Shown: piece after piece, positions 10,653-34,501 of the stretch
Layout of the letters: each line of letters starts with the position of its first letter
Position numbering within the stretch: position 1 is the stretch's first letter
Assembly: GCA_022848865.1 (NCBI GenBank)
Contig: JAJISE010000017.1
Location: 1 to 36,472, forward strand
Direction: 5' to 3'
DNA length: 36,472 nucleotides
From: Candidatus Thermoplasmatota archaeon
GTDB taxonomy: Archaea > Thermoplasmatota > Thermoplasmata > RBG-16-68-12 > JAGMCJ01
Program-made: the position numbers and the translations under genes
The notes under the pieces: model-generated
Told to the model about the DNA's origin: nothing
The model's input: only the letters and a program-made list of their open reading frames with translations
Databases searched by the model: none

Positions 10653-11345
10653 ATGACTGGAGACAGGGTCAAAACATACATCCGTGGATTGGACGAGCAG
10701 TTGCAGGGTGGCGTTCCGAAAGGGCACGTCATCCTGATCGCGGGAAAGCCTGGAACGATGAAATCCTCCGTCGCATTCAACATCCTGTACCGGAACGCGA
10801 AGGACAGTCGGGGAGGCGCATACGTCACCCTTGAGCAGAGCAGGGAGAGCATGCTCGACAACATGGCTGGCATGGGGATGGATGTCAAGGGTCTTGAGAA
10901 GCAGATGTCAGTCCTGGACCTCGCCATGATAAGAAAGAAGCTGAAGCAGCTCTCGAAGCAGTCCTGGATGGAGGTCTTCAAGATGTACGTCGGCAACCTG
11001 AAGAAGAGCATGGATCTCGACCTGCTCGTTGTGGACTCCTTGCCGGTCCTTCAGGTGATGGCGAAGTTCGAGGATCCCAGGGACGAACTCTTCAGGTTCT
11101 TCGAGTGGCTGAGGGACCTGGAAATCACCACATTCCTGATCGCTGAGATGAGGCAGGATTCGGGCATGTTCTCGGACAACGGAGAGGATTTCCTCTCTGA
11201 CGGCATAATTCATCTCGATCTCAGGAGGGAGGACAGGATCGTCAACCTGTTCATGAGCGTTGTCAAGATGAGGAAGACGGGCCACAAGAGAGGCTATTTC
11301 CCGTTGATCTTCGTCGATGGCGGATTCGAGATAATCACGAACTAG
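10653..11345 (+). CDS. KaiC/RAD55-like RecA-fold ATPase
   Basis: The 230-residue protein is a single KaiC/RadA-type domain. Walker A is GKPGTMKSS, in which the second-last glycine of GxGK is Met, a variant I recall from archaeal RAD55-family proteins. The strand-2 glutamate lies in YVTLEQSRE. Walker B is LDLLVVDSLPVL. Late strands include TTFLIAEMRQD and the C-terminus GYFPLIFVDGGFEI. Such proteins act in recombination, motility or signalling; the partner is unknown. It ends tail-to-tail with the site-2 protease, overlapping by four bases. Confidence 0.8.
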   Translation: MTGDRVKTYIRGLDEQLQGGVPKGHVILIAGKPGTMKSSVAFNILYRNAKDSRGGAYVTLEQSRESMLDNMAGMGMDVKGLEKQMSVLDLAMIRKKLKQLSKQSWMEVFKMYVGNLKKSMDLDLLVVDSLPVLQVMAKFEDPRDELFRFFEWLRDLEITTFLIAEMRQDSGMFSDNGEDFLSDGIIHLDLRREDRIVNLFMSVVKMRKTGHKRGYFPLIFVDGGFEIITN

Positions 11346-19474: not shown

Positions 19475-19894
19475 ATGCCAGTGAAGCATTTTGAGTTGTT
19501 GGCCATCGAGGGGAAGAGATTCTCCAAGCTGAGCGAGAAGCCGAGAAACGTCAGGATAGACCATAACAGCTCCGTGACCTCCGTTACGGAGAAAAGCAAG
19601 AACGAGGCGGTGATCGACTTCCGGTTCATGGCGAACTACCAGGGTCTCGGCGTGATATCCATCGAAGGGAGCCTCGTGTACGAGGGCGATGCGAAGGAGA
19701 TCGTGGTGCAGTGGAGGAACCAGAGAAAGATGCCTGACAAGGTGGCGACCGAGGTCCATCAGGCGATCATGAACAACTGCATCCCCGAAGCAGTCGTAAT
19801 CGCGAGGGACATAAGACTGCCCCCGCCGGTTCCGCTCCCTCCCATAAGAATCGGTGGAAAACCGAAGGACAGCACGGGCATCGAGGTTGCCTGA
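19475..19894 (+). CDS. Conserved archaeal protein of unknown function, 139 aa
   Basis: The protein begins PVKHFELLAIEGKRFSK, continues with NVRIDHNSSVTSV, VIDFRFMANYQGLGVISIEG and LVYEGDAKEIVVQW, and ends with a proline-rich segment RLPPPVPLPPIRIGG. The strand-rich core followed by helix and Pro-rich tail recalls the SecB fold, a resemblance in layout only. I recall similar unnamed proteins in other euryarchaea but cannot assign a function. ATG 19475 follows GGGGAG by six bases. It is convergent with the coiled-coil gene, two bases apart, and divergent from tiaS. Confidence 0.8.
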   Translation: MPVKHFELLAIEGKRFSKLSEKPRNVRIDHNSSVTSVTEKSKNEAVIDFRFMANYQGLGVISIEGSLVYEGDAKEIVVQWRNQRKMPDKVATEVHQAIMNNCIPEAVVIARDIRLPPPVPLPPIRIGGKPKDSTGIEVA

Positions 19895-19896
19895 CG

Positions 19897-22482
19897 CTAC
19901 TTGATGTGGTCCAGCGAGAAGGACCCTATGTTCACTCCGTGCTTGCTGTACGTGTACTTTATCCATGCCCTGGACTGAACGTCACCGATGCCCTTGACGC
20001 TCAGGAGGGACTTGAGCTGCTCGACCTTGAAGTCCAGCATGCCCTCCATCATGCTTCCTATCATCTGGATCTCCTGGTCGGTGTGCATGCCCTTCTCGAT
20101 TATGTACAGTGCGACGGCCTTGTGCCTCTTCCTTCTTCCGGCGAAGGCCTGCAGGAACTTGAATATCGACGTCGAGTCCAGGTATGCGATGAGGGTTGAC
20201 ACGGATCGGAAAACGAGCCTGTAGTACTTGTGGTTCTTGAGCAACTCCTTCGAGATCTTGTCCACTGCGCTCAGTATGGCCTTGTAGTCGGTCGGGTCCT
20301 CCAAGTAGATTGTGTACGGGTCCTCCTCCACCTCGCCCATGCTCTTGGAGTAGGAGTCCACATACTTCACCAGACCCAGCTTCTCGTACTCCTCGTATCC
20401 GGAGACGACCGCACCCATCTCCTCCCTTATGTCGGAGGGCATCTTCTCCGTCGTCACCCATATCGTCGGGATGCCCTTCCTCAGGGCCTCGGCCATGAAC
20501 CCGTTGGCAACGACCTCTTTTCCGACGAAAGGCGGACCGTAGATGAGGACGTTGGAACCGAACGGTATCCCGCCCAGGAGCAGGTCGTCGAGTCTCGGAG
20601 TTCCCGTCTTGACCTTCTCCACTTTGAACTCGAGCATCCTCTCCTCTTCGCGGGCGTCGATCTCCTCCTCTATCAGGCCCTGCTCGCGCAGGCGGAGCTC
20701 CTCCATCTTGGACTTCAGGTACTTCTCCTTGGCCCTGACCTCGTCCTCCTTTCTCGCGATCTCCACCTTGAGGGACTCGAGGCGGTCCTTCATCTCGTGC
20801 TCCTCGATGTTCATGGAGGACGCCTTCGCCTCCTCGACCTTCCTTCTCTCTGCCGACAGCCTCTTCTCTCGGTAGAGCAGGTCCTCCTCTCTCCTCAGGA
20901 GCTCCTCTTCCTTGTAGGACAGGGGCTCCTTGACCTTCTGGAGCTCGTCCTCCTTGTCCCTGAGCTCGTCCTTGAGCCTGTCGATCTCCTCCTCTCTGAG
21001 GAGGATTGACTTCTCCTTTGCCTGGAGGTCCTTCTCCTTGGCTATGAGGACCTCGTCTATCTCGTTCTCGGAAAGCTGTCGCAGATCCTGGCTGTCCTTA
21101 CGTAGCTTCTCATCGATCCTGGAGGTCTGGATCTCTCCCTCGAGATGTATGATCTTCTTCCTCAGCTCGTCCTCTTTCTCAAGGAAGTCCTTCTCTTTCT
21201 CCCTCAGCTCGGCCTGAAGTCTCAGTTCCAGCTCGTGCTCGCCTGACTCGCCACCGGGAACGAGCTCTCCGTTCTGGACCGCCCGCTCGTACGCTTCGAG
21301 CTGGTCCTCCTTCGCCTTGATATCGGCTTCCCTCACCACGAGCGCCAGTTCCTTCTCCTTCAGGGCCTTCTTGTCCGCAGGCATCTCGTCCAGTTTTCCC
21401 TCCAGCTGGGCCTTCATGTTCTCCATCACCGTGCCCATCCTCTCGAGCTCGATCTGCAGTCTCTTCCTCTCCGCACCCTCCTCGGCCAGCTTCTTCTTGA
21501 CGGCGGGACCTCCGCCGCGGACCATCTGCTCCTTCATGTACTTGACAACGGCAGATGTTCCCTTCTTCAGGTGGCTGATGTCCTCCTCCAGCTGCTTTCT
21601 CTTGCGGACCTCGGTCTGCAGGTTCTTGCTGAGCTCGGCTGTCTCTTCGATGAGCTTCATCGGGTCGAACTTCCCCGTACGGACTGCCTCCAGTTCCTTC
21701 TCTATGATCTTCTTCAGTTCATTGAGCTCGATGCTCATGCCGTCGACTTCGTCTTCCTTGCGCTTGATGTCATCCTCTCGATCGTTGAGGATCTGCTGTC
21801 TTTCAAGGAGCTCTCTGCTCTCAACGACATCCCCGACTGGGGCGGCTCCAGACTCTCCGAGCCAGGTTTCGAGCGCGTCCTCCTCTCCGGTCAGCCACTT
21901 GCGCAGGGCCCCCATAGTGTCATCCTCACCGTCGCTGGCCGCTTCGGCCGGCGCAGGGCTCTTCTGCTCGGGCGGATCGCCACCGAGCCAGACGCCGAGA
22001 GCGTCGTCCGAATCCCCGGACAACCAGTCGGTGAGGGCCTCTGGGTCCTTCTTGTCCTCCGCGGGTTCGGTGGGATCGAGGATGTTGTTCATGATCGTCT
22101 CCGCAAGCTTGTCCCCGATACCATTGATGGCGGAGAGGTCCTCCAGGGCGGCGGATTTCAGATCCTCCAGAGAGGAATAGCCATTATCGAACAGGATCTC
22201 GGCTTTCGATTCACCGACTCCCTTTATGTTCGAGAAAACCTTGACTGCGTCCTCCCTGGAAGGATCTTCGGGCGTACTTGGACTGGCAACGGATGGTTCA
22301 GGATTCGGCGCAGGATTCTCAGGGCCGGGATTCCCGGCCTTCTTCTCTGAGATGTCCTTGGATTGCGTCCCGCATATGGTACACTGATCCTGCGGGTTCA
22401 AAGGACCCCCGCACACGGCGCAGACACCCGCTTCTGCAGAATCCTTCTTGGGACTAGCCTTCTTCTTGTCTTCGCTTGCCAA
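19897..22482 (-). CDS. Long coiled-coil protein with zinc ribbon, HhH and degenerate KaiC domain
   Basis: The 861 residues run: zinc ribbon (CAVCGGPLNPQDQCTICG, about 21-38); acidic, proline-rich linker; helix-hairpin-helix pair (IKGVGESKAEILFDNGY, INGIGDKLAETIM, about 90-135); short repeats of the LTDWLSGD / VWLGGD / LRKWLTGE / TWLGES type (about 148-212); roughly 400 residues of charged heptad coiled coil (about 225-620); and a KaiC/RAD55-like domain (624-861). In that domain the Walker A is GPPFVGKEV, with Glu656 where Ser/Thr should be, and the Walker B position reads LVFRS, with Arg759 for Asp. It starts with TTG 22482, six bases after the RBS GAGGT. It may be a structural chromosome or membrane-associated scaffold; the function is unknown. 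Confidence 0.85.
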   Translation of the reverse strand: MASEDKKKASPKKDSAEAGVCAVCGGPLNPQDQCTICGTQSKDISEKKAGNPGPENPAPNPEPSVASPSTPEDPSREDAVKVFSNIKGVGESKAEILFDNGYSSLEDLKSAALEDLSAINGIGDKLAETIMNNILDPTEPAEDKKDPEALTDWLSGDSDDALGVWLGGDPPEQKSPAPAEAASDGEDDTMGALRKWLTGEEDALETWLGESGAAPVGDVVESRELLERQQILNDREDDIKRKEDEVDGMSIELNELKKIIEKELEAVRTGKFDPMKLIEETAELSKNLQTEVRKRKQLEEDISHLKKGTSAVVKYMKEQMVRGGGPAVKKKLAEEGAERKRLQIELERMGTVMENMKAQLEGKLDEMPADKKALKEKELALVVREADIKAKEDQLEAYERAVQNGELVPGGESGEHELELRLQAELREKEKDFLEKEDELRKKIIHLEGEIQTSRIDEKLRKDSQDLRQLSENEIDEVLIAKEKDLQAKEKSILLREEEIDRLKDELRDKEDELQKVKEPLSYKEEELLRREEDLLYREKRLSAERRKVEEAKASSMNIEEHEMKDRLESLKVEIARKEDEVRAKEKYLKSKMEELRLREQGLIEEEIDAREEERMLEFKVEKVKTGTPRLDDLLLGGIPFGSNVLIYGPPFVGKEVVANGFMAEALRKGIPTIWVTTEKMPSDIREEMGAVVSGYEEYEKLGLVKYVDSYSKSMGEVEEDPYTIYLEDPTDYKAILSAVDKISKELLKNHKYYRLVFRSVSTLIAYLDSTSIFKFLQAFAGRRKRHKAVALYIIEKGMHTDQEIQMIGSMMEGMLDFKVEQLKSLLSVKGIGDVQSRAWIKYTYSKHGVNIGSFSLDHIK

Positions 22483-22610: not shown

Positions 22611-22684
22611 CGGAGAATATCATGGCAAAAACCGGAAGTCATCCTGGGTTCCCAGCCTTCGGCAAAAGGGTGGATGGGATAGTA

Positions 22685-22855
22685 ATGGACAAGAAGATTC
22701 ATCTGAAGATCGACAAGAATGACTCGTCAATCACGCTGAAGGACGTCCTTGACAAGATACAGGAGATCCAGAAGGAGAACCCGGAACTCGAGGTCTTTTT
22801 TGACGGCGATGAGTACGCCGTGTGCAGCCGACCGAGAAGGGAGGAGATCGGCTAG
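22685..22855 (+). CDS. Small unknown protein, 56 aa
   Basis: The product reads MDKKIHLKIDKNDSSITLKD, then VLDKIQEIQKENPELEVFFD and GDEYAVCSRPRREEIG: a strand, a helix and a strand in an acidic protein. I do not recognise it. The longer frame from ATG 22622 is unlikely because it begins before the expected transcript start. Its stop overlaps the end of the M29-like gene by four bases, tail-to-tail. Confidence 0.6.
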   Translation: MDKKIHLKIDKNDSSITLKDVLDKIQEIQKENPELEVFFDGDEYAVCSRPRREEIG

Positions 22856-33580: not shown

Positions 33581-34501
33581 CTACGAAACTAGGGGAACAC
33601 CCGCAGACTGTCTGATGGAGGCTGTCTTCTTGGACAGTATCCATTGCGCCAGTTCATGGAATCCCCTCTCCACGTTCATTCCGGTTTTGGCGCTAGTGAA
33701 GATGAACGGAGAGCCGATCCTTCGCGAATACTTCGCCACATCCTTCCTGTCAAGATCGAACTGATCCTCCAGGTCCGTCTTGTTGGCAACGATGCACACA
33801 GGCACCTTTCCCGTCGCATGGAAGATGGAAGACTTCCAGCCCTCCAGGCCTCTCAGAGTCTCGTTTCGCGTGACATCGCAGACGGCGAGGACGCCCTGCA
33901 TCCCCTTGAAATGGGACTCCATGCAAAGGTCCGCGATGCTCCTCTCTCCCAGGATGTCCCATATCATCATGTCCACCCTCATCCGCCTGTTGTGCGGGAG
34001 GGGAATGAAGACCTCCTTCTTGGAGACCTTCGCGCCTATCGTCCTGACGTAGGCGTCGTCGAATTGATCCAGGACGAATTTCCTGATCAGACTGGTCTTG
34101 CCTACCGCGGCGTCTCCGACGAGTCCGACCTTGAGCTTCGCCACGCTCTCGTTGTCTCTCTTCATATCGGTCGGAGCCTCGGAGACCACCCTCATCTCGT
34201 AGTCTATGCGAGCCACCTTCAAGAGGTACTTCATCTTGTAGATGGCCGTGTGAACCGCCTTTGCGACGTTCCTGTCACGAGAGGAGAAGGCGTTCTTGGG
34301 AACCGTAAGGGTGAGCCTGTCGTCCTCGAGAATCCAACATTCCGATTCCAGGACGTCGGACACCATTCCCACTATGGAATCCTTTCCCTTGAAGTGAACC
34401 TCGAAGATGATCCTTCCCTCTTTGCTTATCTCCCTCAGGTCTCTGCGCTTTGAGATTCCATCCAGCAGGACCTTCCTGCTTCCGGACCTCGATGATGTCA
34501 T
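33581..34501 (-). CDS. Ras/Rab-like small GTPase with N-terminal extension
   Basis: The 306-residue protein has a small-GTPase domain (about 123-295): G1 GDAAVGKTS at 129-137, G2 Thr154 in YVRTIGAK, G3 WDILGE with DxxG at 182-185, G4 NKTD at 240-243, G5 SAKTG at 270-274. The residue after DxxG is Glu186 instead of the catalytic Gln of Ras, so intrinsic hydrolysis may be slow. The N-terminal 110 residues are beta-rich (RIIFEVHFKGKDSIVGMVSDV, in part; then a helix) and could be a small ligand-binding domain. GGGT six bases before ATG 34501 is the RBS. Confidence 0.85.
   Translation of the reverse strand: MTSSRSGSRKVLLDGISKRRDLREISKEGRIIFEVHFKGKDSIVGMVSDVLESECWILEDDRLTLTVPKNAFSSRDRNVAKAVHTAIYKMKYLLKVARIDYEMRVVSEAPTDMKRDNESVAKLKVGLVGDAAVGKTSLIRKFVLDQFDDAYVRTIGAKVSKKEVFIPLPHNRRMRVDMMIWDILGERSIADLCMESHFKGMQGVLAVCDVTRNETLRGLEGWKSSIFHATGKVPVCIVANKTDLEDQFDLDRKDVAKYSRRIGSPFIFTSAKTGMNVERGFHELAQWILSKKTASIRQSAGVPLVS

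Follow-up and report, generated by a model that had tools for sequence, protein, structure and literature searches.

A conserved rod protein of Thermoplasmata carries a KaiC-like domain with replaced ATPase residues and is a candidate non-catalytic scaffold

Dozens of KaiC-like proteins with no assigned role are encoded in archaeal genomes, and one gene of Candidatus Thermoplasmatota archaeon (assembly GCA_022848865.1, contig JAJISE010000017.1; the whole stretch of 36,472 nucleotides analysed is referred to as the window) raises the question of what a KaiC-like domain does at the end of a long charged rod when its residues for ATP hydrolysis appear to be broken. The gene, recognised from its open reading frame and translation and from its orthologues in related genomes, occupies positions 19897-22482 on the minus strand and encodes an 861-aa protein. 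Direct reading gave a TTG start at 22482 and a TAG stop at 19899-19897, and close relatives share both this TTG and the MASE-KKKAS opening. An earlier note on this DNA (hereafter the original prediction) had the coordinates and the length of 861 aa correct, the strand being added here, and the parts that it had listed, namely a zinc ribbon, a helix-hairpin-helix (HhH) pair, a WL region, a long charged helix and a KaiC-like C-terminal domain, are all present.

The predicted zinc ribbon, residues 21-37 (CAVCGG...CTICG; 22372-22422, minus strand), is formed by C21-x2-C24 and C34-x2-C37 and is found in many, not all, orthologues. The HhH pair, residues 84-131 (22090-22233, minus), matches PF14520 HHH_5 with E 7.8e-13 and is likewise missing from many orthologues; since an HhH pair is also present in a TPR protein of the same genome, it is taken to be a mobile module. 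The WL[ST]G[ED] region, residues 150-209 (21856-22035, minus), carries WL motifs at 153, 165, 196 and 207, of which the conserved short form is LxxWL[ST]GE; the motif is present in most orthologues, and a search for it among the proteins of the same genome gave one weak match. A long charged helical or coiled-coil rod (45-58% charged) follows at residues 215-620 (20623-21840, minus), and residues 624-861 (19900-20613, minus) constitute the KaiC/RecA-like pseudo-ATPase domain, assigned by PF06745, PF24336 (DUF7504) and hhalign. The Pfam KaiC match at 624-800 (E 1.3e-17; 64.4 bits against a cut-off of 26.6) places the domain in the KaiC superfamily, and the DUF7504 match at 642-811 (E 8.6e-10; 39.8 against 27 bits) also passes the gathering cut-off. 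Outside this domain, the WL motif, a segment at 265-319 and the helix adjoining the domain are the most conserved parts. Conservation within the family is also high at the C-terminus (VQSRxWIxYT...GSFSLDHI), yet the last 40 or so residues lie outside the alignment with intact KaiC.

The rod had been described as about 400 residues of coiled coil. When residues 215-620 of the 861-aa protein were analysed alone, the heptad signal was not significant, and residues 480-620 gave a weak one; the profile averaged over orthologues, however, peaked at a hydrophobic period of 3.50, and none of 500 shuffles gave a peak as strong. The heptad signal is thus weaker than that description implies.

The state of the nucleotide-binding site was analysed by hhalign of the family against 17 KaiC-like proteins of the same genome with intact motifs (E 2e-22). 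GPPFVGKE, residues 649-656 (20515-20538, minus), was paired with the intact P-loop, TTEKM with TLEQS, and YRLVFRSVSTL with DLLVVDSLPVL, the hhhhDS strand. By this alignment, which we regard as unambiguous at positions 656 and 759, the P-loop Ser/Thr is replaced by Glu656 (codon GAG at 20515-20517, minus) and the Walker B Asp by Arg759 (codon CGA at 20206-20208, minus), both codons being read directly, as the original prediction had placed them. Where an active KaiC-type ATPase has GK[ST] in Walker A and hhhhD in Walker B, the 861-aa protein thus has GKE and Arg759; the acidic catalytic residue after the third strand is present as Glu679 (20446-20448, minus), aligned with the Glu of TLEQ in the intact set.

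Alignment of homologues had been proposed as a check on this placement, and a total of 149 non-redundant homologous domains were counted. Intact Walker motifs in homologues, which would have counted against the original prediction, are not the family state: position 656 is Glu in 119 domains, Arg in 12, Asp in 7, Tyr in 4, Gly in 3, Ser in 1, another residue in three and Thr in none, and position 759 varies by lineage (Arg in 77 domains, Glu in 16, Val and Asp in 10 each, and other residues in the rest), the Walker B Asp being missing in 139. The supposed loss of canonical ATP hydrolysis gains support from these numbers, with Glu656 in 119 of the 149 domains and Ser/Thr in one. At position 679 Asp (103) or Glu (25) is found in 128 of 149 domains, and because this acidic residue is kept at the catalytic-Glu position, the loss concerns the Mg-binding residues. 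The commonest pair at 656/759 is E/R (77), and the charge-swapped R/E occurs in 2 domains; salt-bridge covariation as a rule was rejected, since E/E (11), E/D (7) and pairings of Arg and a hydrophobic residue are frequent too. An AlphaFold2 model of the KaiC-like domain, for which five close sequences were the input, gave a mean pLDDT of 43 and was unusable, and no claim is based on it.

The explanation that we consider best, with a probability of about one half, is a non-catalytic RecA-fold docking or assembly platform carried on a soluble coiled-coil rod. The 861-aa protein would be a soluble scaffold in which the C-terminal KaiC/RecA-fold domain, no longer capable of a Mg-ATP hydrolysis cycle, would form, at the tip of the long helical rod, a constitutive platform for assembly or docking, and the rod, the WL[ST]GE motif and the variable N-terminal modules (the zinc ribbon, and the HhH in some lineages) would present or recruit partners. 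Oligomerisation, docking of partners and co-assembly with a paralogue (see below) are properties that we infer for it.

Weighed against such a platform are the conservation of the P-loop Gly and Lys and of the acidic residue at 679, which would allow for ligand binding or an unusual kind of catalysis, and the weak heptad signal of residues 480-620. The main rival, to which we allow a real though clearly minor chance, is that the domain senses a nucleotide independently of Mg, or another phosphate ligand, and that binding without hydrolysis switches the partners of the rod. It draws on the retention of the P-loop (G649 in 144, G654 in 142 and K655 in 140 of the 149 domains) together with the acidic residue at 679, and on the precedent of ArlH/FlaH, the KaiC-like protein of the archaellum, a putative switch that binds ATP without hydrolysing it (PMC8978795). 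In the present family, however, both Mg ligands are gone, the Glu occupies the place where Mg and the phosphates are held, and the Lys is lost in some homologues. ArlH, in addition, keeps its Walker motifs.

The age of the replaced residues was estimated from a tree of the family and intact KaiC proteins built without the scored columns, in which the pseudo-KaiC family is split from the intact proteins with 99% SH-aLRT. Among the deepest Thermoplasmatota branches are standalone or differently fused members (L223, L224, L225, L226, L230 and L237) that have GKE together with an intact Walker B Asp, and in the rod-bearing members the Walker B Asp is lost too. Because the basal relatives show this pairing, the P-loop hydroxyl was probably lost first and the Walker B Asp later, on a tree with several long branches and open forks. 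The dN/dS of the KaiC-like domain among close relatives is 0.08-0.15, and the domain is therefore under strong purifying selection, which favours the earlier suggestion that the RecA fold is maintained as a scaffold. Since the ATPase residues stay replaced across most related archaea, the domain is judged to be a maintained pseudo-enzyme, its residues replaced long ago, and not a decayed one. The broken catalytic motifs, if taken by themselves, would suggest a decaying gene or an artefact of sequencing or assembly; this is refuted by the same residues in independent genomes and genera, by open frames of similar length and by the low dN/dS, which leave it next to no probability.

About 33 KaiC-profile matches were found in the 2-Mb genome. 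Many intact KaiC-like proteins are present, and the 861-aa protein would therefore not be needed as an ATPase. As further broken P-loops (GDEKD, GNEKY, PTEKR and GVGKL) occur among the KaiC-like proteins of this genome, the phenomenon is broader than a single gene. Another pseudo-KaiC is a 2360-aa frame (L038, on G000:C57), in which a degenerate KaiC-like domain (GDEKD) at the start is followed by apparent TPR, a zinc ribbon, a TM segment and FG-GAP-like repeats. Within the window, a KaiC-like protein with an intact-type P-loop (GTMKSS) is encoded at 10653-11345 on the plus strand.

The order of domains had been called rare, a view that is not supported, as the architecture is conserved across most of the sampled Thermoplasmata genomes. 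Judged from similarity searches, the gene is present in most of the Thermoplasmata genomes sampled: the pseudo-KaiC domain was detected at E 1e-30 in 147 of 200 genomes of the class, a count that takes in a membrane paralogue, and 59 of the 61 nearest genomes gave a match at E 0.001, a loose count that takes in other KaiC-like proteins. The domain is missing from most of the sampled genomes of two families, f11 and f22; G146 is the one f11 genome that carries it, and a short divergent GKY form is present in some of the f22 genomes.

The paralogue, about 900-970 aa in length, has 4-6 N-terminal hydrophobic segments, that is, membrane helices instead of the zinc ribbon and HhH, and it also carries a rod and ends in the same domain, with GKE at the P-loop and mostly Leu, Met or Ile at position 759. 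In this genome it is a 903-aa protein (L036; G000:C13:5335-8043, minus strand) with N-terminal membrane helices and the GKE pseudo-KaiC domain. Since a rod and a domain of the same kind stand behind 4-6 membrane helices, the platform could sit in both places, the soluble protein placing it in the cytoplasm and the paralogue at the membrane.

The membrane paralogue without HhH also bears on a suggestion made in the original prediction, tethering to DNA through the HhH. In a DNA-tethered SMC-like organiser, the HhH and zinc ribbon would bind DNA, the rod would span the distance and the RecA fold would dimerise. The HHH_5 match is clear, and several DNA-repair families (RadA, UvrC, Hel308-type helicase) match the same segment; the SMC_prok_B profile matches the rod, weakly and at chance level (E 0.05). 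The HhH is, however, missing from whole groups of orthologues, and some orthologues have no zinc ribbon, with the WL[ST]GE motif, the segment at about 265-319 and the helix adjoining the domain being conserved; the mobility of the HhH pair, as seen with the TPR protein, is a further point against it. Because so many orthologues are without HhH, the distribution argues against DNA tethering as the core function, and an organiser of this kind is considered unlikely.

The soluble platform was also considered with respect to its gene neighbourhood. Around the gene in orthologous loci, no conserved operon was found, nor was an active KaiC found in its conserved neighbourhood. The immediate neighbour (19475-19894, plus strand) encodes a 139-aa protein; its gene stands next to the rod gene, in convergent orientation, at 20 loci that represent 11 families of the class. 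The protein has a conserved LPPPxPxP segment and an EVA C-terminus, belongs to no Pfam family and is present in 95 of the 194 genomes that were sampled from the phylum. Sequence-profile searches with it gave no PDB match and no significant Pfam match. An AlphaFold2 model of the 139-aa protein, with a mean pLDDT of 64 and values of up to 88 in the core strands and helices, consists of four strands followed by two helices. A fold search ranked Rv1957, a SecB-like chaperone, and SecB itself highest among solved structures (E 0.02-0.05, probability 0.57-0.89, TM about 0.3), a weak match that is suggestive of a SecB-like fold. A proteostasis adaptor working with this neighbour, for example by handing clients to membrane insertion, would agree with the convergent adjacency and with the SecB-like chaperones as best fold matches. 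The genes, however, are convergent without an operon, the resemblance in fold is weak (E 0.02, TM about 0.3), and each gene occurs in genomes without the other: the 139-aa family has a different location in other genomes, is present in many members of the phylum without the pseudo-KaiC domain, and is missing from some genomes with the rod gene. Linkage is what was observed, any link between the two proteins is inferred, and the adaptor is held to be quite improbable.

Divergently upstream of the rod gene, at 22622-22852 on the plus strand, lies a conserved ORF of 77 aa (KIHLKIDKNDSSITLKDVLDKIQEIQ...DGDEYAVCSRP), relatives of which are found near the orthologue in several other genomes. Most of the other annotated genes in the window are housekeeping genes, such as those for an M29-type peptidase, TiaS, an aminotransferase, enolase, IF-2 and PurM. 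A Ras-like small GTPase with an N-terminal extension of about 120 residues is encoded at 33581-34501 on the minus strand.

A more elaborate version of the platform may be imagined, in which a soluble and a membrane protein form a two-protein Thermoplasmata scaffold, their homologous pseudo-RecA heads co-assembling through a metal-free site that has Glu in place of the Mg-binding hydroxyl. The pair would connect partners in the cytoplasm or nucleoid to the membrane, and the SecB-like protein would take part as a partner; this is speculative, and we rate its chance as small. As regards the simpler platform, the pseudo-enzyme state looks old, ordered and strongly selected in most of an archaeal class, and goes together with a fixed rod architecture and a relative bound to the membrane. 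The family offers a clear and testable example of a RecA fold retained for a role other than catalysis, and is a candidate for a structural or signalling component of Thermoplasmata.

Among known systems, PH0284 (PDB 2dr3), SSO2452 (2w0m) and cyanobacterial KaiC share the fold family of the 861-aa protein (phmmer E 2e-10 against 2dr3). These intact KaiC-like ATPases differ in keeping GK[ST] and the Walker B Asp, and the last 40 or so residues of the pseudo-KaiC family are not aligned with them. ArlH resembles the 861-aa protein in its KaiC-like fold and in not hydrolysing ATP, but it binds ATP and autophosphorylates, and the profile match is weak, the NCBIfam ArlH score being 21 bits against a cut-off of 215. 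SMC/Rad50-like coiled-coil ATPases likewise join a long helical rod to a fold of nucleotide-binding type; their heads are ABC, whereas the head of the 861-aa protein is of KaiC/RecA type and stands at one end. A further relative is the DUF7504 member WP_006067971.1 of Natronorubrum bangense (27% identity over 180 aa; DUF7504 at 137 bits), which shares a SVSTLxxYxDxxTxFRFLxxFxGR-type signature but is a standalone protein of 210 aa. Since this haloarchaeal protein has GKR and Tyr at the two Walker sites, the inactive family extends beyond this phylum; no paper on DUF7504 was found in the literature collection that was searched.

Inactivated KaiC-like archaeal domains (iKaiC) are a described class, proposed to be signal-transduction adaptors (PMC5847659, citing Makarova, Galperin and Koonin 2017). 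As presented in that citing paper, they have the KaiC-superfamily fold with ATPase residues lost and are fused to other modules in archaea, for example to response-regulator and HalOD1 domains (PMC5847659). The 861-aa protein has the KaiC fold and the inactivated motifs, with no signalling domain recognised by Pfam, and differs from the iKaiC described there in its zinc ribbon, HhH, WL motif and 400-residue rod and in being widespread in Thermoplasmata. The inactivated KaiC class and the membership in Pfam KaiC and DUF7504 are thus already known; what appears to be new, iKaiC being compared through the citing paper, is the conserved architecture, the widespread Glu substitution with the order of losses proposed here, and the membrane-anchored relative.
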